NCBI GenBank assembly: GCA_025060695.1
Contig: JANXBH010000010.1
Span: forward strand, 1-60,446
DNA from: Caldifarciminota bacterium
Lineage (GTDB): Bacteria; Hydrothermota; Hydrothermia; LBFQ01; DSFT01
Reading direction: 5' to 3'
DNA length: 60,446 bases
The position numbers were made by a program, and so were the translations under genes. Position 1 is the stretch's first letter. Each line of letters begins with the position of its first letter. Of the stretch, positions 7,446 to 44,492 are shown in pieces. A model generated the notes under the pieces. It saw only the letters and a program-made list of their open reading frames with translations. It had not been told where the DNA came from and ran no database searches.

Positions 7446-9374
7446 TTATTTAATTACTATACTTTTAGTCAGGTTCCCGTGCTTTAAAATATAAATACCT
7501 TTTTTAACATTATAAACTTTTTTACCATTTACAAACTCGGAAACGATTAATTTACCATCAATTGAATATATAGCTATATTGCCATGCCCCGTGAATATAA
7601 TCTTAGAACCTTCAACATGAAATTTAAAATTACCAAAATTGTTCTCAGTTAATTTTGTAGCAGTTACGCAAATATAATTTGTTTTAGTAATCCTATCAAT
7701 TGGTAAATCATTAGGTGAGTTTATAGCATTATTCTCATCTACATCAAACCAAATCATTACTACAAGATCATAGCATTTAGCTTGAATATTATAAGGTGTT
7801 GTAAATTGCCTTGTATAATTTTTTGTTCCAGGAATCACACTTATTCTTATATCATTGGCGGGATTACTTATCCAGTTTACACCATCGTATAAACTTGCAC
7901 CGAGCATTATTCTTGGATGTGTATCAGGAGTCCCTGAGTAAATATCCACAGAAATAGTAAATGTTTGTCCCGGATTTATATTAGTTGGACTTGCTGAAAG
8001 GTTAAGAAAACCCATAGGAGTTGAAATATGCCAATTTTTAGAGGAGTAATAATGGACAGCCATCCAATCCCAATACTTCCCGTTATCTCCCCATCTTTTT
8101 GTCCCCCATTGACACATACCCCTTCCATGACCAAAACAACCATGACCTGAACATAGATTATCATTTATACAGGGCCAACCTGTGCAGGGAGAGCCAGCTT
8201 TACCATCACCACAAGGACAACTATTTACACAATTTAAATTATCATTTGGATCATCCCAGCCATTATTTTCTGCAGAATATTCAGCTCTTGAAACTGAATT
8301 TGCCTGAGGAGAAATAGCAAAACCTGATGTATATTTCGCTGCATTTACTGTATTTACTGAGTAATCGCCATCCCAAACTTGACAGCAAGTCGTTGAGCAT
8401 ATATCGTAATTATTGCTTATAGGATTTAAAACATGCCAAGAACCATAAGCTCTATACGCAAGTGCTCCAGCTCTTAATGAGTGAGCATTCCAACTTGCTA
8501 TCCATTCATCATTGAGTCCTGTTTGCACATAACTTTCCAAACTCATAACTGATACACTTGAGCAATTTGTGCAAGAGCAATTTGTCCCAACCCTTATACT
8601 TGAAGGTGGGTCAAAAAACGGCAAAGGTATTACATCAGTCACATTTATACTATTTTCCTTCATTTTCATAAGTCTATTTCTGTCATAAACTCCATTTTCA
8701 GAAGAAGTATATCCATCTTTTATAAGATATTCATATGGTTTTCTATCTACTATTCCATGAACTTCGTTATATACAATATCTCCATTTCCCTCCGACATAC
8801 CAATTTTCAAAATAGTTATTCCGGGAAATAGAGCTAAATTGTTGTATTTATAGACTTTATAACCTGTCTTTGAAAATATGAAGTTAGTTCTTTTCATAAT
8901 AACTTTATATGCTCTTGAAAACTCATCCCTGTAAGGATTAAGGGTGTTTAGCTTTATGATAAACTTTCCATTTTGGTCAGTATACAAAATTTTATCTTCT
9001 ACTTTAATAGCTACATCTGATAGTGGTCTTAAAGTCCTCTCATCGTGAACATAACCAACTACAATAGCATAATTAGAAGATTCTTCAAAACCATAAATGG
9101 GTGAAATTTCTGGTTCTAAAAGAACGTCTACATTAATCACTTCTTCCTTTTTAAGAATAAAGTAAGTTTTTAGACTTTTGTAGCCTTTAGCATAAAATTC
9201 AAGCTCATATTTTCCATCTTCATTAGCAGGAATAGTTATTATAGGACTTTCAGAGTTTATAACCATATACGTATTAGATGGAGTTTTTACAATTACTCTA
9301 ATATTCTCTATGCCATAGTAAGTGTGAACATCTTTAACTTTTAAATTTATAGTAAATAAAGTTACAAACAACAT
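7446..9374 (-). CDS. Secreted SpoIID/LytB-domain protein with T9SS-type sorting domain
   Basis: A 642-residue protein. Residues about 10-90 and 105-160 resemble carboxypeptidase-regulatory-like beta domains (DVLLEPEISP; GYVHDERTLRPLSDVAIKV). The middle shows a SpoIID/amidase-enhancer core: LESYVQTGLNDEWIASWNA with the conserved Glu, then ALAYRAYGSW, VWDGDY, and a late HGRGMCQWG followed by HYYS. SpoIID proteins are lytic transglycosylases acting on peptidoglycan. The core is cysteine-rich, suggesting disulfides. The last 70 residues (IAIYSIDGKLI, KKGIYILKHG) look like a T9SS type-A sorting domain. N-terminus MLFVTLFTI is a minimal signal. Confidence 0.82.
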   Translation of the reverse strand: MLFVTLFTINLKVKDVHTYYGIENIRVIVKTPSNTYMVINSESPIITIPANEDGKYELEFYAKGYKSLKTYFILKKEEVINVDVLLEPEISPIYGFEESSNYAIVVGYVHDERTLRPLSDVAIKVEDKILYTDQNGKFIIKLNTLNPYRDEFSRAYKVIMKRTNFIFSKTGYKVYKYNNLALFPGITILKIGMSEGNGDIVYNEVHGIVDRKPYEYLIKDGYTSSENGVYDRNRLMKMKENSINVTDVIPLPFFDPPSSIRVGTNCSCTNCSSVSVMSLESYVQTGLNDEWIASWNAHSLRAGALAYRAYGSWHVLNPISNNYDICSTTCCQVWDGDYSVNTVNAAKYTSGFAISPQANSVSRAEYSAENNGWDDPNDNLNCVNSCPCGDGKAGSPCTGWPCINDNLCSGHGCFGHGRGMCQWGTKRWGDNGKYWDWMAVHYYSSKNWHISTPMGFLNLSASPTNINPGQTFTISVDIYSGTPDTHPRIMLGASLYDGVNWISNPANDIRISVIPGTKNYTRQFTTPYNIQAKCYDLVVMIWFDVDENNAINSPNDLPIDRITKTNYICVTATKLTENNFGNFKFHVEGSKIIFTGHGNIAIYSIDGKLIVSEFVNGKKVYNVKKGIYILKHGNLTKSIVIK

Positions 9375-17396: not shown

Positions 17397-18052
17397 TTTA
17401 TTCTAATTATTTTATTCACACCTCTTCCTACAAAAATTAGAGAACTTGGAAAATTCGGATAAGGCTTGAAATTCTGTATAGTGCAAAAATTACCACTAAT
17501 AAACAGTAAGTCATACTTAAAAGTATCAAGTTGAGATGTATTTAAGACAAAAATAGTATCATTTATAGAAATGTATCCACTACCCCAAGAAAACTCAAGG
17601 TCTCCTTGTTTCTTTAGTAAAATCATATTCTTTCCACTTGAACTTCCAAAATATCTCCACTTTACCTCTATATTCTCACCTTTTAAAACGCTATCCTTAT
17701 TTAATAACACTTTTATGCTATCAAGATCATTAGCAGTGCAATTTAAATTTACATCGTTATTTGAAAATCTTATTCCAACTTGGAAATTTTTATTTTTCTT
17801 ATAGCTTATAATGGCAGGATAGCCAAGTGCTGATGAATTATACGAAATTTGAATATCATTTACTTTAACTATTGCGTCTTGGACATACATATTATCAGTT
17901 AAGCTTTTTATTCTAATTAAAGTAAGCCCAAGTGTATCACTATAGCCTTGAATAGTATTTATAGTTCCTGCTATTGCATAGTCTATTTGAGGAGGTTTTT
18001 CTTCTTTCCCCTTACATGCAAGAAAAATAATTAAAATTAAAAATCTTTTCAT
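17393..18052 (-). CDS. Putative lipoprotein, paralogue of its downstream neighbour
   Basis: 219 residues. MKRFLILIIFLACKG gives a lipobox Cys at position 13. The body is beta-rich, with VKVNDIQISYNSSALGYP and EVKWRYFGSSSGKN; the C-terminal FKPYPNFPS parallels FKPYPGYRF in the next gene. Middle of a three-gene operon with ATGA overlaps on both sides. Probably faces the periplasm or cell surface; function unknown. Confidence 0.65.
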   Translation of the reverse strand: MKRFLILIIFLACKGKEEKPPQIDYAIAGTINTIQGYSDTLGLTLIRIKSLTDNMYVQDAIVKVNDIQISYNSSALGYPAIISYKKNKNFQVGIRFSNNDVNLNCTANDLDSIKVLLNKDSVLKGENIEVKWRYFGSSSGKNMILLKKQGDLEFSWGSGYISINDTIFVLNTSQLDTFKYDLLFISGNFCTIQNFKPYPNFPSSLIFVGRGVNKIIRIK

Positions 18053-18612
18053 TTTCTAAGTCCTAATCCTACATTCAATATTGGAACGCTATAGTCAGGT
18101 CTAAAATAAAGACCAGATGAAAAACTAAAAAACTTCTTATGATAACATACAGAAAGAGAATTTAAAGAAAATAGAATACTGAAGTCTCTATAATCAAAAA
18201 TAAACTTTCCAATTCCATACATATACTTTTGGTTATATAACCTTAAGGGTCTTGCATTTAAATCAACATCGTAGATTAGTTCCGCCTTAAAGGAAAAGCT
18301 ATTTAAAATAACGTTTTTTACACCAAAATTAATCCTTAAATAGTTAGTTGTATCATGAAAATTCTCATATTTTTGAATATGATTTTGACTTGTTAAATTA
18401 AAATTTATACCTATCCTTTCATTTATATGTTTTTCAAAGCCCAAATTTAAAATATATTCAAGAAAACTCCTCTTACCTGTTGGAGTAGTTGAACTAATAA
18501 TAGTTTGTCCATAAAAACCATTTACAAATATATGATCCGAAATCTTTGCTTTTTCCACAGTTGAGTTATAACCAATGCAACCACTTAATAAAACAAATAA
18601 TAATCTTCTCAA
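18049..18612 (-). CDS. Putative outer-membrane lipoprotein, beta-barrel-like
   Basis: 187 residues. MRRLLFVLLSGC puts a lipobox Cys at residue 12, an exceptionally short signal. The rest alternates hydrophobic and polar residues in strand-like blocks (FGVKNVILNSFSFKAELIYD; FSSGLYFRP) and ends VGLGLRK, suggesting a small barrel. Start is TTG, directly against the shared palindrome, so the transcript would be leaderless. Heads the three-lipoprotein operon, divergent from rtcB. Confidence 0.65.
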   Translation of the reverse strand: MRRLLFVLLSGCIGYNSTVEKAKISDHIFVNGFYGQTIISSTTPTGKRSFLEYILNLGFEKHINERIGINFNLTSQNHIQKYENFHDTTNYLRINFGVKNVILNSFSFKAELIYDVDLNARPLRLYNQKYMYGIGKFIFDYRDFSILFSLNSLSVCYHKKFFSFSSGLYFRPDYSVPILNVGLGLRK

Positions 18613-18632
18613 ACTTTAAAATTTTAAAGTCT
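18613..18632. promoter_or_regulatory. Shared bidirectional palindromic promoter (lipoprotein operon / rtcB)
   Basis: The whole gap between the two start codons is ACTTTAAAATTTTAAAGTCT, with 18613-18630 a perfect 18-bp palindrome. A TTG start lies directly on its left, an ATG 2 bp to its right. Each strand carries TAAAAT at -10-like spacing to its own gene. Confidence 0.7.
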
Positions 18633-20081
18633 ATGAAAAATTGGAAAAAAATCTTGGAAAAAATTACTGATTATAAATGGAGAATTCCAAAGAGTTATAA
18701 AGATGGAATGAATGTAGATGGTATTATTTTTGCAACCGAAGATCTATTAAATGACATAATTGAAGAAGGGGAGGCATTAGAGCAAGTTGCTAATGTCGCA
18801 ACACTTCCAGGTATTGTAAAGTACTCCATAGCCATGCCTGATATACATTGGGGATATGGTTTTGCTATAGGAGGAGTAGCTGCATTTGATCCCGAAGATG
18901 GGGGTATAATAAGCCCGGGAGGAGTAGGTTATGATATAAATTGTGGAGTAAGAATTATAAGAACAAACTTGAAAGAAGAAGATATAGAAAAATATAAGAT
19001 AAAGCTTGCTGATAAATTATATAACTATGTTCCAAGTGGAGTAGGAGCAAGGAGTAAATTTAAATTTTCTGATAGTGAACTAGAAAGAATTACTCAGGAA
19101 GGTTTAAAGTATCTTAAAAAATTAGGATATACCTGGGAGGATGATCATAACCATATTGAAGAGTTTGGAAGTATGCCAGGTGCAGACTTTTCAAAAGTCA
19201 GCCAAACTGCAAAAGAAAGAGGAAGGGATCAACTTGGTACAATTGGAAGTGGTAATCATTTTTTAGAAGTTCAAGTAGTTGATGAAATATATGACGAAGA
19301 AATAGCAAAGAAATTGGGACTATTTAAGGGTCAAGTAGTAATTATGATACACTGTGGAAGCAGAGGTTTTGGTCATCAAATAGCAAGTGATTATATAAAG
19401 TCTTTTGATAGAATCTTGAGTAAATATAATATAAAACTAGTAGATAGGCAACTATCCTGTGCTCCTTTTAATTCAAACGAAGGTCAGGACTACTATAAGG
19501 CTATGGTATGTGCAGCAAATTTCGCATGGTCAAATAGACAGCTTATAACATACCAAGTAAGAAAGGCATTTAGTGAGGTTTTAAATAGAAGTGCAGAAAG
19601 TTTAGAAATGTCAATTTTATACGATGTTGCACATAATATTGCCAAATTAGAAGAGCACGATGGTAAAAAATTAGTAGTGCATAGAAAAGGTGCTACAAGA
19701 GCTTTACCAAAGGGACATAAACTATTACCTCCATCGTATAAGGATATAGGACAACCTGTTCTCATACCAGGAGATATGGGAAGTTATTCTTATATTTTAA
19801 TAGGAATGCCTAAGGCAATAGAGGAGTCCTTTGCAAGTTCTTGTCATGGTGCAGGTAGAGTGCTTTCAAGAACAAAGGCAAAAAAATTAGTTCAAAAATC
19901 TTCACTACTTAAAAGACTAACCGAAAAAGGAATAGTAGTAAGAGCAGAAAGTGATGCTACTTTATTAGAAGAAGCACCAGAAGCATATAAGGATGTAAGT
20001 AAAGTAGTAGAAGCAGTAGAATTAGCAGGTATTAGTAAAAAGGTAAGTAGAAATAGACCAATAATTGTAGTCAAAGGATAA
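18633..20081 (+). CDS. rtcB: RNA-splicing ligase RtcB
   Basis: 482-residue RtcB, a GTP- and Mn-dependent RNA ligase that joins 2',3'-cyclic-phosphate or 3'-phosphate ends to 5'-OH ends in tRNA splicing or RNA repair. Metal ligands and active site: GGVGYDINCGVRI (Cys), GTIGSGNHFLEVQ, IHCGSRGFGHQ, and the guanylated histidine in SCHGAGRVLSRTKAK. A longer frame opens at 18546, but the ATG at 18633 follows the palindrome and begins MKNWKKILEKI as in homologues. No archease or RtcA gene is adjacent. Confidence 0.96.
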   Translation: MKNWKKILEKITDYKWRIPKSYKDGMNVDGIIFATEDLLNDIIEEGEALEQVANVATLPGIVKYSIAMPDIHWGYGFAIGGVAAFDPEDGGIISPGGVGYDINCGVRIIRTNLKEEDIEKYKIKLADKLYNYVPSGVGARSKFKFSDSELERITQEGLKYLKKLGYTWEDDHNHIEEFGSMPGADFSKVSQTAKERGRDQLGTIGSGNHFLEVQVVDEIYDEEIAKKLGLFKGQVVIMIHCGSRGFGHQIASDYIKSFDRILSKYNIKLVDRQLSCAPFNSNEGQDYYKAMVCAANFAWSNRQLITYQVRKAFSEVLNRSAESLEMSILYDVAHNIAKLEEHDGKKLVVHRKGATRALPKGHKLLPPSYKDIGQPVLIPGDMGSYSYILIGMPKAIEESFASSCHGAGRVLSRTKAKKLVQKSSLLKRLTEKGIVVRAESDATLLEEAPEAYKDVSKVVEAVELAGISKKVSRNRPIIVVKG

Positions 20082-22788: not shown

Positions 22789-22861
22789 GCCGTTGTAGCT
22801 CAAGTGGTAGAGCGGGGCATTCGTAATGCCCAGGTTGCCGGTTCAAGCCCGGCCAACGGCT
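22789..22861 (+). tRNA. tRNA-Thr (CGT)
   Basis: Seventy-three nt fold into a full cloverleaf: acceptor GCCGTTG/CAACGGC, D stem GCTC/GAGC, anticodon stem GGGCA/TGCCC with loop TTCGTAA (anticodon CGT, reads ACG), variable loop AGGTT, T stem GCCGG/CCGGC with TTCAAGC, discriminator T. CCA is not encoded. The GC-rich stems stand out in this AT-rich region. The mature 5' end sits where the promoter motif predicts transcription to start, and a coding sequence begins one nt after the 3' end. Confidence 0.96.
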
Positions 22862-25515: not shown

Positions 25516-25839
25516 TTATCTAATTGTCCAATAGCATTCAATATCATTTTCTCTTAGAATATCGCATAAAGTAGAACTTTTTATTCCATCAGAGCATGCA
25601 ATAAGATAAACTTCATCCTTTTTGAAATTCTCTAAATGCTCCATATAGTTATAAAATTCCTCATTATCTTTAATATAAATATAAACATGAGGAACTTCTA
25701 ATTCTTTTCTTAAATAAATAAGAAGTTCTAACGGAATAGAAAAGAGATTTTTTATGTAAACCCCATTTATTATAGCACTTTCAAGCTTGTATAGTTCTTC
25801 CTTGTGCTTTTCAAAATCCTCAATAGTTCTTATCTCCAT
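25516..25839 (-). CDS. Rhodanese-like small protein
   Basis: 107 residues with a compact alpha/beta pattern and a C-terminal ACSDGIKSSTLCDILREN, resembling the rhodanese active-site loop (Cys followed by a basic/small turn and helix). Assignment is tentative; it could be a degenerate rhodanese or another small Rossmann-like fold. It shares a 20-bp palindromic promoter with the receiver-like gene on the other strand. Confidence 0.55.
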   Translation of the reverse strand: MEIRTIEDFEKHKEELYKLESAIINGVYIKNLFSIPLELLIYLRKELEVPHVYIYIKDNEEFYNYMEHLENFKKDEVYLIACSDGIKSSTLCDILRENDIECYWTIR

Positions 25840-25859
25840 ACCTTAAAATTTTAAAAGCT
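25840..25859. promoter_or_regulatory. Shared bidirectional palindromic promoter (rhodanese-like / receiver-like)
   Basis: ACCTTAAAATTTTAAAAGCT fills the whole space between the divergent ATGs at 25839 and 25860. The core TTAAAATTTTAA is a perfect palindrome. Confidence 0.7.
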
Positions 25860-26198
25860 ATGATAGTTATTATATCTTACGAAATTTCACTACTTAGAAC
25901 TGAAATGGAGCTTCTTGCAAGAGAAAAAAAGGGAATTGTTCTTAATCCAGACAACCAATCAATTATGTATATAAGAAAACATAAACCTAAACTAATAATA
26001 CTTGACCTTTCATCAGCAGAGAGCTTAATATACGAAGTTTATACATCCATTAAAAAGGAATTTCCTGAAACTAAGTTTATATTAACAGGTTTCCAAAAAT
26101 TCATAAAAGGACCATTTGAAAATGTAAACGAAGTAAAAATATTTCCATATAATACCAAGAAAGTAAAGCAAGTTATCAAGGAACAATTTAAATTATGA
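25860..26198 (+). CDS. Receiver-like domain protein
   Basis: 112 residues with the alternating strand/helix layout of a response-regulator receiver: VIISYE at the first strand, KLIILDLSSAES with an Asp in the phospho-acceptor position, KFILTGF, and EVKIFPYNTKKVKQVIKE at the end. The acidic pair after strand 1 and the Lys of KP are not clearly conserved, so phosphorylation is doubtful. It is ATGA-coupled to lysA. Confidence 0.55.
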   Translation: MIVIISYEISLLRTEMELLAREKKGIVLNPDNQSIMYIRKHKPKLIILDLSSAESLIYEVYTSIKKEFPETKFILTGFQKFIKGPFENVNEVKIFPYNTKKVKQVIKEQFKL

Positions 26199-35100: not shown

Positions 35101-36350
35101 CAATTTCTCTTTTCTTAGTATTTATTCTATTGTTTTTCATAACATTGCATTTTGGACCAATTATTCTATTACCTATAGGATTAGCCATTATTTTTATTTT
35201 GATACTCTCTATACAGTCAAAAAAAGTTTTCTTTTGGATTATTGCGCTAGCTTTAGCTATTAGACCAATTACAATAGACCTTTTTTTTTGGAATACTTAT
35301 GTATTTGGATTTAAAATTACGCACATTTATAGTTTTTTCTTAATTGCTTTATCTATATTTGCTATATTCAGACTAAAAGTTTTTATAAAGAACTATAACT
35401 ACTGGATATTACCTGCACTATTCTTTATCTACCATTTTTTTATGGGCATTAGTATTCTTCAAGGTGGTAAAATATTTTCTTCATTAGAGTATTTCTTAAG
35501 AAGTGCGGGTGGTATTCCATTTTTCTTCCTTATTGGTTATCTTTTGGAGGACGAAAAGGAACTTATTAAATTCTTAAAGATTATACTTATTCCTCTTTTA
35601 GTTTTAGTTGCATTTTCAGTTATTTTTACTTTTTATAGAGTTGAGGAGCTTTACATGATAACAGGAAATCAAAAGCAATTTTGGAGACTAAAACTTCTTT
35701 ATCACGATAGTACACAATTAGTAATTTATCTTACCATGGCACTTATTATACTTTGCTACCTATACTACAAAGAGAGAAAAATTTACTATTTAATATTTAT
35801 TTACCTTACACTTATTCCTATATACGCAACCCAAACTCGTTCTGCTTGGGTTTCAGTAGCATTTATTATGGTGTTCTTTTCATTTTTATTAAGAAGCCCA
35901 ATATATTTAATACCTATTTTAATATTTGGCATATTTAGATATGAAGATATATTAAAAAGATGGGACTATGCAGGTATTGAATTTGCAGAAGAAGCTGGTT
36001 TTAGTGGCAGATTAAGTTTATGGAAAATCGGACTATATATCTTTTTAAACTCAGATATAATAAAGCAAGTTTTTGGTCAAGTAGTGGGTCCCCCTTTCCT
36101 AATTCTTGATTTTCACAACCAGTATATTTATTGGTTAGTTAGTAATGGAATATTCGGATTTTTGTTTAATATAAGCATTTTAATGATTTTGTTTATAAAG
36201 ACTATAAACCCTCTTATTAGTATGATTTATATGTGGATATTTATATCGGGTTTTCTTGCAAACTTCTTAATTATGCCAAATGTGGTAATATTTTTATGGT
36301 CAATACTTGGATATTATTTAAGGAAAAGAGAAAATCTTTCATTTCCATAG
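35085..36350 (+). CDS. O-antigen ligase / polymerase-like polytopic membrane protein
   Basis: 421 residues, about ten to twelve hydrophobic segments. YATQTRSAWVSVAFIMVFFS matches the Wzy_C/O-antigen ligase core with its Arg, and DFHNQYIYWLVSNGIFG near the end matches the conserved His-Asn loop. It probably ligates or polymerises a lipid-linked glycan at the outer face of the inner membrane. The 3' end overlaps prmC on the other strand by 37 nt. Confidence 0.82.
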   Translation: MGHILTISLFLVFILLFFITLHFGPIILLPIGLAIIFILILSIQSKKVFFWIIALALAIRPITIDLFFWNTYVFGFKITHIYSFFLIALSIFAIFRLKVFIKNYNYWILPALFFIYHFFMGISILQGGKIFSSLEYFLRSAGGIPFFFLIGYLLEDEKELIKFLKIILIPLLVLVAFSVIFTFYRVEELYMITGNQKQFWRLKLLYHDSTQLVIYLTMALIILCYLYYKERKIYYLIFIYLTLIPIYATQTRSAWVSVAFIMVFFSFLLRSPIYLIPILIFGIFRYEDILKRWDYAGIEFAEEAGFSGRLSLWKIGLYIFLNSDIIKQVFGQVVGPPFLILDFHNQYIYWLVSNGIFGFLFNISILMILFIKTINPLISMIYMWIFISGFLANFLIMPNVVIFLWSILGYYLRKRENLSFP

Positions 36351-37057
36351 TAGTCCTTCAATATTGTAAAGTTATATCTCCTTAGTTTATTAGAGATTCT
36401 TGGCGAAATTTCTAAAAGGCAACTTCCGTTTTCTAATAGGCAATTTTGGAAATTATGTAAAAAGTAGTTAAAGCTGTCTTCATTATGTATAAGAGCTATT
36501 TTAGGTTCGCATTTTACTTTAGTACTTAAATTTTCATATTCATCATCAAAGACATATGGCACATTCCAAATTATCATATCAAATTTACCTTTTAATGACT
36601 TTATACTATCACTACAACACAGAAAAATTCTATCTTTTAAATTATACCTTATTATATTCTTTCTTGCTACATCTAATGCACTATAAGATATATCACTTGC
36701 CCATATTCTAATGTTATTAATTTCTTTTGCTAAACTAATAGCAATTGCTCCGCTTCCTGTCCCTATTTCAAGTATTTTTCTATATTTTTTTTGAATTATA
36801 ATCTTCATTGCTATATCTACAAGCTGTTCTGTTTCATTTCTTGGAATCAATACATTTTCATTTACATATAGAACTAAATCTCTAAAGTATGCTTTATTAA
36901 AAATATATTCTACAGGCTTATACTTTGCAAGTTCTAAGTATGGTTTTATAATTTCCAATTCTGCTGGTTTTAAATTCCCTAAAACATAATCAATATAGGT
37001 TTTACCTAAGACCTCCCTAATTACAAAGTCAATTTCGTAAGGTTCTAAATCATTCAT
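36314..37057 (-). CDS. prmC: Release factor glutamine methyltransferase PrmC/HemK
   Basis: 247 residues. PrmC methylates the GGQ glutamine of peptide-chain release factors. LIPRNETEQLVDIA (PRxETE motif) and LEIGTGSGAIAISLAKE (motif I) are typical. The active-site NPPY is NVPY here (IIWNVPYVFDDEYE), an unusual change at a normally invariant Pro. The C-terminus is short. Shares a 20-bp bidirectional promoter with the sigma factor. Confidence 0.88.
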   Translation of the reverse strand: MNDLEPYEIDFVIREVLGKTYIDYVLGNLKPAELEIIKPYLELAKYKPVEYIFNKAYFRDLVLYVNENVLIPRNETEQLVDIAMKIIIQKKYRKILEIGTGSGAIAISLAKEINNIRIWASDISYSALDVARKNIIRYNLKDRIFLCCSDSIKSLKGKFDMIIWNVPYVFDDEYENLSTKVKCEPKIALIHNEDSFNYFLHNFQNCLLENGSCLLEISPRISNKLRRYNFTILKDYYGNERFSLFLK

Positions 37058-37077
37058 ATTACTTTAAAATTTTAAAT
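37058..37077. promoter_or_regulatory. Shared bidirectional palindromic promoter (prmC / sigma factor)
   Basis: ATTACTTTAAAATTTTAAAT is the entire gap between the ATGs at 37057 and 37078. Both strands carry TAAAAT. Confidence 0.7.
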
Positions 37078-37899
37078 ATGGGTTTTGATGAGTTTAAAAT
37101 AGATAGTATAAAATCCCTAAACAGAGAAGAAGAAAGAGAACTAATTAAAAAATCAAAACAGGGTGATAAAGAGGCAACAGAAAGGATTATTAATTCACAT
37201 TTAGGATATATATACAAAATGGCTATCGAGTATTCAAAAGATTATGGTGTGTCAATAGATGAATTAGTAGACGAAGGAATATTAGCCCTTTTTGAAGCTA
37301 TTAAAAGATTTGATCTTAAAAAAAGGGTTAGATTACTAACTTTTGCTTCTTACTATATAGAAAATGCTATGAAGAAATATGCAAGTGAACAAGCTCACTC
37401 AATAAAAGTCCCATTAGACTACAGAGAAAAACTAGCGAAAATACTTAGAGTTATTGAAGAATTCAAACAGACAGAAGAAAGAGAGCCAACTATTGAAGAA
37501 ATTGCAAGAATACTAAATATGCGTCCAGAGACAGTAAGAAGAACACTAAATGAATATAGAGGAGAATTTTCACTGGAAGAGCTTGAAGTAGAAGAAGATA
37601 AAAGAATACCTGAAGAAAAATTTAACAACCCGCATCAAGTAAGTTTATCTGAAGAAATTAAGAGCGAAATAAGTTTAGAAAACATATTAAAACTACTAAA
37701 AGAAATATTAGATGAAAGAGAGTTTAAAATTATCTCTGAGTATTATGGTTTATTTGGAATTCAAAGTAATTTTGAAAAACTTGCAAAAGAACTAAATATA
37801 TCAAAGGAAAGAGTAAGACAGATAAAAGAGAAAGCTATTAGAAAACTTAGATTTATCTACGGAGATAAGTTAAAAGAAATATTTTATGATAAAGATTAG
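37078..37899 (+). CDS. Sigma-70 family RNA polymerase sigma factor
   Basis: 273 residues. A reduced 1.2 region (LNREEERELIKKSKQGDKEA) is followed by region 2 (SIDELVDEGILALFEAIKRF), region 3 (EEREPTIEEIARILNMRPE) and region 4 with helix-turn-helix NFEKLAKELNISKERVRQIKE. In region 2.3/2.4, where primary sigmas read TYATWWIRQAI, this one has LLTFASYYIENAMKKYA: both tryptophans are tyrosines and the Arg-Gln pair differs. It could be an alternative sigma or this lineage's housekeeping one; there is no region 1.1. It starts on a shared palindromic promoter, so may control itself. Confidence 0.9.
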   Translation: MGFDEFKIDSIKSLNREEERELIKKSKQGDKEATERIINSHLGYIYKMAIEYSKDYGVSIDELVDEGILALFEAIKRFDLKKRVRLLTFASYYIENAMKKYASEQAHSIKVPLDYREKLAKILRVIEEFKQTEEREPTIEEIARILNMRPETVRRTLNEYRGEFSLEELEVEEDKRIPEEKFNNPHQVSLSEEIKSEISLENILKLLKEILDEREFKIISEYYGLFGIQSNFEKLAKELNISKERVRQIKEKAIRKLRFIYGDKLKEIFYDKD

Positions 37900-42319: not shown

Positions 42320-43437
42320 ATTAAATTAACTATTTTCTTTGCAAGCTCAAATTTATCCAAATTCTCAAATTCAAAAATTTTATTAAAGTTCTTATCCATA
42401 ATAAAACCTGTAATGTTCTCACTATCAATACTTTCAATAGTATTCGCAACTACATAGTCAAGATTTTTTTCCTTTATCTTATTCGCTGAAGAAACTTCCA
42501 AGTTCTCTCTACTTTCTAAGGAAAAACCTATAAATATAGTACTATTCTTAAACTTAGATAATTCAGCTAATACATCTATATTAGGTTTTAGTTCTAAATT
42601 GATACTTCCTTCTTTTCTATGCAATTTTCCTTCTTTTTTATTTACTACAAAATCCGATATTGCAACTGGCATAATTAGAACATCGTATTTTGTTATACTT
42701 TCTTTTATAAAATTTAAAAGCTCAATTGTTTTATATATCTTTACGTATTGCCTCTTGGGGACAAACTCCACATTCCCACAAACTACAATATCGTGATAAA
42801 TACCCTTATTTTCAAGTGCTAAGTGTATCAAATAGCCCATTCTCCCACTTGAGCGATTTGTAATAACTCTTACATCATCTATAGGTTCTTCAGTTCTACC
42901 ATAGATTAGTAGGACTTTTTTCGTCTCTCTAAATAAATAATCTAAAACCTCATCAATCTCTACCATCCTTCCCATACCATATTCGCCACTTGAAAGCATA
43001 CCATATGTAGGACCAAGTATTTCAACACCATGCATTCTCAACTTTTCTATATTTTCTCTTAAAAAGCGATTATCCCACATCTCTTCGTGCATAGCAGGAA
43101 CAATAATAATTCTCTTATTAAATGCTATTGAAACGGAAAGTAATAAACTATCTGCTATACCATTTGCAAGTTTTGATATAAAATTAGCACTTGCAGGCAA
43201 GACTATTAATACATCACCCCATCTTGCAATTTCTATATGCAAGTTTGAATTAAAAAAATCTTTTGGTGTATACACGTCCGCATCAGTAATAGATTTAAAT
43301 GATAAAGGTTTTATAAACTTCAGTGCTGAATAAGTTAATATTACTTTTTGCTTAATACCCCTTTTATATAATTCTCTTGAAAATATTAAACCTTTATAAG
43401 CTGCTATACTTCCAGTAATACCAAGAACAACTCTCAC
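42316..43437 (-). CDS. coaBC: Bifunctional phosphopantothenoylcysteine decarboxylase/synthase CoaBC
   Basis: 373 residues. The N-terminal flavin decarboxylase half has GITGSIAAYKGL, VLPASANFISKLANG and VPAMHEEMWDN; the C-terminal ligase half has GRTEEPIDDVRVITNRSSGRMG and VGFSLE-type sequence (FIGFSLESRENL). It makes 4'-phosphopantetheine in CoA synthesis, linking to panB. Start is GTG, overlapping the rpoZ stop as GTGA. Confidence 0.95.
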   Translation of the reverse strand: MRVVLGITGSIAAYKGLIFSRELYKRGIKQKVILTYSALKFIKPLSFKSITDADVYTPKDFFNSNLHIEIARWGDVLIVLPASANFISKLANGIADSLLLSVSIAFNKRIIIVPAMHEEMWDNRFLRENIEKLRMHGVEILGPTYGMLSSGEYGMGRMVEIDEVLDYLFRETKKVLLIYGRTEEPIDDVRVITNRSSGRMGYLIHLALENKGIYHDIVVCGNVEFVPKRQYVKIYKTIELLNFIKESITKYDVLIMPVAISDFVVNKKEGKLHRKEGSINLELKPNIDVLAELSKFKNSTIFIGFSLESRENLEVSSANKIKEKNLDYVVANTIESIDSENITGFIMDKNFNKIFEFENLDKFELAKKIVNLI

Positions 43438-43637
43438 TTATCTTTCTTACTCATAATTAAGTCCATAGATATAAGTATAGATTTTATAGGTAAATTTAGG
43501 TTTTGCTCCTTTGACTTTTTATGCAACTCTCTACTTTTTTTAGCTGCAAGAACTATTAGTTTATACTTGTCATATCCTAATTTTTCTAATTTAGAGTGGT
43601 CAAATCTTTTTGATAAAAGCTTAAAGTTTTTATCCAT
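43434..43637 (-). CDS. rpoZ: RNA polymerase omega subunit-like protein
   Basis: 67 residues: GYDKYKLIVLAAKKSRELHK is the recognisable omega core, followed by SILISMDLIM. Omega helps beta' folding and assembly. The position before coaBC matches the common rpoZ-coaBC order. Divergent from accD across a 21-bp shared promoter. Confidence 0.78.
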   Translation of the reverse strand: MDKNFKLLSKRFDHSKLEKLGYDKYKLIVLAAKKSRELHKKSKEQNLNLPIKSILISMDLIMSKKDK

Positions 43638-43658
43638 AGCCTTAAAATTTTAAAGCTA
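43638..43658. promoter_or_regulatory. Shared bidirectional palindromic promoter (rpoZ-coaBC-plsC / accD)
   Basis: AGCCTTAAAATTTTAAAGCT (43638-43657) plus one A is the complete gap between the two ATGs; the arms are inverted repeats with one mismatch over 20 bp. Confidence 0.7.
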
Positions 43659-44492
43659 ATGTTTTTTCAAAGGAAAGAAACAAAACTTCCACAAACGGAG
43701 CAAAAAAGAGAAACTCCTGATAATTTATGGATAAAGTGTGAGAATTGCTCAGAAATTTTATATAGAAAGCATATAGAAAAGAACTACTGGATATGTCCTA
43801 ATTGCAACTATCATTTTAGGATAAATTCAGACTTATATCTAAATTATATTTTAGATGGGGGAGGTTTTATAGAGGAGTATGTTTACAACTTAGAAACTAA
43901 GGATTTTTTAAACTTCCCAGGATATGCAGAAAAACTAAAAGAATTAAAGGAAAAGACTAAATTAAACGATGCTTCAAGAGTAGGATATGGTAAAATTGAT
44001 AACTTTGACGTAATATTCTTTATAACAGACTTTAGATTTTTAGCAGGTTCTATGGGAGCAGTACTTGGAGAAAAGTTTTTCTACGGTGTTTTAAAATCCA
44101 TAGAAAAAAAAATCCCGTATATTGCACTAACCTCATCGGGTGGTGGAGCAAGAATGCACGAAGGTATTATTTCATTAATGCAAATGGCAAAAACTACATT
44201 AGCGGTAATAGAATTAAGGAAAAACTCAATTTTATATATAAATATCCTTACTGACCCCACTATGGGTGGTGTAATGGCTTCTTTCGCAGCATTAGGTGAT
44301 ATACTTATAGCTGAACCTGGAGCGCTTTTAGGCTTTGCAGGACCAAGAGTAATAGAGCAAACAATAAAAGAAAAACTACCAGAAGGCTTTCAAAGAAGTG
44401 AGTTTCTACTAAAAAAAGGACAAGTGGATTTAGTAGTGCCAAGAAATGAATTAAAAACTACAATTTCAAAAATACTAAGGCTTCTCTCTTAG
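43659..44492 (+). CDS. accD: Acetyl-CoA carboxylase carboxyltransferase subunit beta
   Basis: 277 residues. A four-Cys zinc ribbon (CENCSEILY ... ICPNCNYHF) opens the protein; SSGGGARMHEGIISLMQMAK, DPTMGGVMASFAALGD and FAGPRVIEQTI are the carboxyltransferase core. With AccA it transfers CO2 from biotin to acetyl-CoA to start fatty acid synthesis. Overlaps the 3' end of ftsX by 18 nt. Confidence 0.96.
   Translation: MFFQRKETKLPQTEQKRETPDNLWIKCENCSEILYRKHIEKNYWICPNCNYHFRINSDLYLNYILDGGGFIEEYVYNLETKDFLNFPGYAEKLKELKEKTKLNDASRVGYGKIDNFDVIFFITDFRFLAGSMGAVLGEKFFYGVLKSIEKKIPYIALTSSGGGARMHEGIISLMQMAKTTLAVIELRKNSILYINILTDPTMGGVMASFAALGDILIAEPGALLGFAGPRVIEQTIKEKLPEGFQRSEFLLKKGQVDLVVPRNELKTTISKILRLLS

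Follow-up and report, generated by a model that had tools for sequence, protein, structure and literature searches.

The 20-bp gap between two divergent genes of a Caldifarciminota bacterium, encoding a lipoprotein-like protein and RtcB, is filled almost entirely by a site (18613-18630) that we read, with a probability of about 0.8, as a bidirectional leaderless promoter lacking a -35 element, in which two copies of the genome's standard promoter are superimposed and would be used in one direction at a time. Coordinates refer to the window, that is, the whole stretch of 60,446 nucleotides that was analyzed.

The site, ACTTTAAAATTTTAAAGT, is a perfect 18-bp palindrome, as an earlier note on this DNA had reported; the same note took it to be the whole intergenic region, which is slightly too much, as the gap extends from 18613 to 18632 and the palindrome occupies 18 of its 20 bp. 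On the plus strand, rtcB (18633-20081; Pfam RtcB, 2e-176) begins with ATG and is preceded by the promoter ACTTTAAAATTTT (18613-18625; consensus RCYTTAAAATTT), whose TAAAAT at 18617-18622 ends 10 nt ahead of the start codon at 18633. On the minus strand, the neighboring gene (18049-18612) begins with TTG and found no match in Pfam; its product carries an N-terminal LSGC, which we take to be a lipobox-like motif. The promoter of this gene (18618-18630, minus strand) is identical to that of rtcB in all 13 letters, and its TAAAAT at 18626-18621 ends 8 nt ahead of the TTG at 18612. Each strand does have its own TAAAAT at a fitting distance, as had been claimed, and the two elements overlap by 2 bp, with the full motif readable both ways. 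The two superimposed promoters, which share AAAATTTT, score 18.0 on the plus strand and 17.5 on the minus strand with a matrix whose maximum is 18.6. Both start codons can be taken as sound, because the rtcB matches in the two closest relatives that have the gene start at residue 1, and because an in-frame TAA two codons upstream leaves the lipoprotein gene no possible start earlier than the TTG. The proposal of one site with a near-consensus promoter in each direction is thus borne out as far as sequence goes, and the predicted 5' ends would lie a few nucleotides from the start codons, as predicted at most transcription-unit heads of this genome.

The standard promoter was defined in a sample of 930,159 of the 1,496,868 genome bases, window included, with genes called by a simple script and a start-codon model that adds codon scores; training of the matrix used genes of this genome outside the window. 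Transcription-unit heads carry RCYTTAAAATTT, with TAAAAT 6-11 nt before the start codon. Alignment of 218 instances on the -10 element gave R C Y T T A A A A T T T, with a weak A/T preference in the flanks, and TAAAAT ended 6-11 nt ahead of the start codon in 215 of them (preset range 5-11), most commonly 6-7 nt. When the distance limit was removed, divergent genes showed 119 sites at spacings of 6-11 versus 14 at 12-24. A score of at least 9 was reached by 167/230 divergent genes, by 6/247 overlapping genes, and by 3/813 sets of internal in-frame starts; among same-strand genes, the values were 41/143 at gaps of 40 or more and 77/197 at gaps of 0-39. In the held-out window, 16 of 22 divergent genes had the motif, as did 9 of the 20 other genes without overlap, but just 1 of the 19 that overlap. 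It also precedes 21 of 29 tRNA genes, with TAAAAT ending 9-17 nt upstream (seven of the eight tRNA genes without it lie directly 3' of another tRNA), which favors a promoter over a translation signal. The median gap between divergent genes is 67 bp, versus 150 bp in a relative from the same class.

A -35 element could not be detected in these promoters: there was no enrichment at spacers of 12-22 among 135 instances, and TTGACA-like sequences at a 17-bp spacer occurred in 11 of the 135 versus 7.9 expected (6-13 across all spacers). The classical sigma-70 arrangement, with TTGACA approximately 17 bp upstream, was not found, nor was the TG at -15/-14 that marks extended -10 promoters; the conserved upstream letters are instead a C at -15 (87%) and a T or C at -14 (95%). 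The leaderless arrangement, in which TANNNT stands a few nucleotides before the start codon, was found at both rtcB (10 nt) and the lipoprotein gene (8 nt), inside the 5-11 nt range of the genome. The earlier note had placed any upstream promoter contacts inside the coding sequence of the opposite gene; because the promoters show no -35 element, such contacts need not be assumed.

Comparison with relatives identifies TAAAAT as the -10 element. In 400 kb of G018, a relative from the same class, TATAAT or TAAAAT occurs at the same distance from the start codon together with TTG at a 17-bp spacer, and four or more of the six letters of TTGACA are matched in 6 of 17 instances (0.5 expected). In another genus of the family (G002, 51.6% GC), 84 instances yielded the motif C T T T A A A M T T T, and no -35 element accompanied it there either; the element is thus missing from the predicted promoters of both genera. 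More widely, TAAAAT or TATAAT 5-8 nt before ATG exceeds a reversed control in most of 60 relatives, pointing to leaderless -10 promoters as widespread in this group.

Further observations concern tRNA genes and RNase P. For 21 of the 29 tRNA genes, predicted leaders measure only about 2-10 nt (e.g., at 22789-22861 in the window and in L002). Separately, RNase P RNA (RF00010) and RnpA (PF00825) were found in none of the four genomes of the window's family (G000-G003, G000 being the genome of the window), and HARP (PF08745, PIN_5), a protein-only RNase P family, in all four; of the 17 other genomes of the class, 17 have RNase P RNA, 15 RnpA, and 5 HARP. The family seems, on these profile matches, to have replaced RNase P RNA by protein-only HARP. 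A weak class B RNase P match in G000 (15 bits) was rejected as a chance hit located inside coding sequence. The HARP match of G000 lies on contig C22 (7721-8152, in L169), where the gene (reverse strand, ~7721-8300) is split across two frames at an A run near codon 36. In the sister species of the same genus (G001), the HARP match likewise starts at profile position 40, so the two genomes may share a slippage site, or the same assembly error may have occurred twice.

The symmetry of the lipoprotein/rtcB site follows from the form of the promoter itself. When the matrix was compared with its own reverse complement, a single closely overlapping register was found to allow two perfect copies, at an offset of -4, with AAAATTTT shared. 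A second compatible zone begins at offsets of 10-12, with the copies abutting and AAAGCTTT common to both; between the two zones the best joint score collapses. Offsets of -12 or below are also compatible, but each promoter would then lie past the other's start. Among 115 divergent gene pairs, both promoters (score at least 8) were present in 67, one in 38, and none in 10. The -10 offsets of the 67 pairs are quantized, with seven at -4, none from -3 to +10, eight at 11-12, and the others spread above, matching the two registers in which the matrix fits its own reverse complement. All seven pairs at -4 have gaps of 18-22 bp. The 18-bp symmetry arises because two copies of a 12-13 bp promoter, self-complementary in one register, are superimposed, and even the outer AC/GT letters of the palindrome belong to the promoter, as the R C of its consensus. 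Thus, on the sequence evidence, the palindrome is not special for its palindromy, which is a consequence of promoter superposition, and the lipoprotein/rtcB site is the tightest case of a genome-wide packing of promoters.

Nor is this site unique, as at least eight fused gene pairs occur in the sampled sequence, four of them inside the window. A second (25840-25859, gap 20 bp) separates genes at 25516-25839 (minus) and 25860-26198 (plus) and scores 16.5 on the plus and 10.5 on the minus strand. The third (37058-37077, gap 20 bp; plus 17.3, minus 8.8) lies between a methyltransferase gene (36314-37057, minus) and a gene of the small sigma-70 family (37078-37899, plus); the latter was considered as the main sigma factor and rejected, a separate RpoD of 542 aa being present. 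The fourth (43638-43658, gap 21 bp; plus 17.7, minus 18.6) stands between a 67-aa gene (43434-43637, minus) and a carboxyl transferase gene (43659-44492, plus). This pair, 43637/43659, is the eighth and had been overlooked by the gene caller because of its 67-aa partner, which found no match in Pfam and may resemble the omega subunit of RNA polymerase. A hand count of cores with an ATG 1-8 nt away on both sides gave 9 in G000 and 15 in G001, to which the rtcB site adds one G000 core with TTG on one side; these double-ATG cores count as candidate starts of gene pairs. Of two G001 cores that were inspected, one stands between genes of 191 and 210 aa that both start from it, and the other starts a 243-aa gene on one side and faces only an 18-codon frame on the other.

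The same locus was compared in G001, of which approximately 100 kb was sampled. There, too, the lipoprotein and rtcB genes are divergent, but some 237 bp separates their -10 elements, and a promoter copy of its own precedes each gene (scores 17.9 and 16.3). The earlier note had looked to conservation of the palindrome between related genomes; what is kept in the genus is the type of element, not its fused arrangement at this locus. The fused state can accordingly be assigned, from the predicted promoters, to this locus in this species, being neither general nor obligatory. Simple deletion between two copies like those of G001 was rejected as the way in which the fused site arose, since both inner C letters would be lost. 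In the G001 lipoprotein gene (L185, 14860-14915), no ATG, GTG, or TTG was found at the usual distance past the strong promoter; ATT and ATA codons stand at that position, so the gene may use a rare start codon or begin elsewhere than expected.

A perfect dyad between divergent genes is what an operator usually looks like, and a dimeric transcription factor that recognizes the palindrome and regulates either gene or both would also fit the recurrence of the palindrome's 14-bp core, TTTAAAATTTTAAA, at 30 places in the genome. Number and placement nevertheless led us to reject the operator of a specific regulator, and this reading is quite improbable: the non-palindromic half-motif, present ahead of 167 of 230 divergent and 21 of 29 tRNA genes, is far too general for such a protein, stands at a fixed distance from start codons, and in the class relative resembles a -10 element accompanied by a -35. 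Neither restriction to a regulon nor dependence on the dyad was found, and superposition accounts for the symmetry. That an AT-rich gap of 20 bp is palindromic by accident is more improbable still, even though length and perfection of the palindrome had to be rejected as evidence. The window holds one palindrome of at least 18 bp versus 0.98 +/- 1.08 in 40 first-order Markov sequences, and the 930-kb sample holds 36 of at least 16 bp, which is no excess, as three order-3 Markov sequences gave 48, 52, and 57. What carries the signal is the motif, not its dyad symmetry as such. When up to one mismatch is allowed, the window contains 13 copies of TTTAAAATTTTAAA versus 1.17 expected (about 11-fold; none of 100 shuffles reached 13), and the 30 exact occurrences of this core in the genome compare with none for the reversed control pattern, with tight placement relative to start codons. 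Across 60 relatives, strong enrichment does not extend beyond the genus (62 versus 6 for the control in G001); two other genomes of the family gave 1 versus 0 each, and the remaining relatives 0-8 versus 0-11.

A third alternative, unlikely but less so than the other two, is that the site drives one gene only, the other being transcribed from elsewhere, and that the second TAAAAT arises incidentally where the TTTT at the end of the consensus meets an A-rich spacer. The reverse -10 alone does not prove use: the core TAAAATTTTA is found at 49 of 167 divergent promoter-bearing genes and also at 16 of 124 same-strand ones, which have no divergent partner, and the sites at 25840 and 37058 each have one clearly weaker direction (10.5 and 8.8). 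By contrast, 18613-18630 is near-maximal both ways, including the outer C (18.0 and 17.5), and the sequence upstream of either start is the coding region of the opposite gene, so that no separate intergenic site is left. The G at +12, corresponding to the outer C of a reverse copy, is present in 15 of 49 divergent versus 2 of 16 same-strand cores, which also speaks for use in both directions, albeit in small numbers.

Under the preferred reading of a bidirectional promoter, RNA polymerase would bind the single site in either orientation. In one, TAAAAT at 18617-18622 would be opened and rtcB transcribed from near 18629-18633; in the other, the opposite TAAAAT would be opened and the lipoprotein gene transcribed from near 18614-18612. 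Each firing would serve one gene, and the two orientations would exclude each other because the two -10 elements share base pairs. Both mRNAs would have leaders of about 0-4 nt and be translated as leaderless or nearly leaderless messages, and loss of the -35 element would let the entire divergent promoter region shrink to about 20 bp. The spacing of 10 nt at rtcB exceeds the commonest spacing and counts against this reading; given that spacing, the rtcB leader may be about 4 nt. In E. coli, according to PMC12825309, steric constraints stop opposing polymerases from binding a bidirectional promoter together, and competition at such promoters appears at high activity only. Mutual exclusion at the lipoprotein/rtcB site is carried over from E. 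coli and would hold here by analogy.

RpoD offers a possible lead. At the aligned position that we take to be T440 of the E. coli protein (region 2.4), G000 (L083) has I and G001 (L248) has M; the 13 others have T (11) or S (2), so that I/M is confined to the genus among the 15 (three of the 20 alignment rows, small sigma factors of relatives, were left out). In E. coli, T440I alters recognition of -12, suppressing a mutation there (PMC2613000). The change at T440 could be related to the promoter type and is a lead rather than evidence of cause.

Symmetric bidirectional promoters have been described in E. coli, Salmonella, and other prokaryotes by Warman, Grainger, and co-workers (PMC12825309, PMC10268837); in these papers, a separation of 18 bp between divergent starts is the commonest, with 10 and 23 bp also common. 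As in those promoters, -10 elements on opposite strands overlap here within one short site, few or no other elements would be needed, and polymerase could use the site either way but never both at once. Unlike those, the starts would lie 15 bp apart (with a 7-bp step from the -10) or 21 bp apart if placed at the start codons, the two mRNAs are predicted to be leaderless, the consensus is wholly self-complementary, and the promoters of the genome lack a -35 element. Leaderless -10 promoters are known from TA-like signals across bacteria (Zheng et al. 2011, PMC3160421) and from Deinococcus-Thermus (PMC12340547); they share the TANNNT about 6-8 nt before the start codon, the dispensable -35, and the short or absent leader predicted here, but not the fixed, extended 12-13 bp motif RCYTTAAAATTT. 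The Deinococcus paper (PMC12340547) nowhere uses the terms "divergent," "bidirectional," or "palindrom". Extended -10 promoters (TGn/-10; PMC2613000) resemble the present ones in that specific bases just upstream accompany a missing or weak -35, but here these are C at -15 and T or C at -14, not TG; the same review cites the statement that clear cases of a pure extended -10 promoter, with neither a -35 match nor an activator site, were not known. Symmetric bidirectional and leaderless -10 promoters are thus both known; the lipoprotein/rtcB site would be both at once, without a -35 and in a register other than the 18-bp one commonest in E. coli and Salmonella, and calls for no new category. No description of fused leaderless promoters was found in the open-licence papers and listings searched.

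A broader reading, offered tentatively and at somewhat less than even odds, is that the family lost the -35 element and the consensus of the genus became self-complementary in one register, so that a leaderless promoter of 12-13 bp can overlie its own reverse complement and divergent genes are packed in discrete steps: fused (gap of about 20 bp), abutting (about 30-39 bp), and separate. Fused pairs would then act as obligate one-at-a-time switches, by which genes such as rtcB and those for a sigma factor and a carboxyl transferase are tied to their neighbors, and the change at T440 could be part of the adaptation. If the reading of the lipoprotein/rtcB site is right, 18 bp would constitute the complete promoter region of two protein genes, without a -35 element and without leaders, and would provide a test bed for random choice of orientation by the polymerase and for turn-taking of two genes on one -10 element. 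It would also link loss of the -35 to compaction of intergenic DNA and supply a rule by which start codons assigned in this lineage can be corrected.
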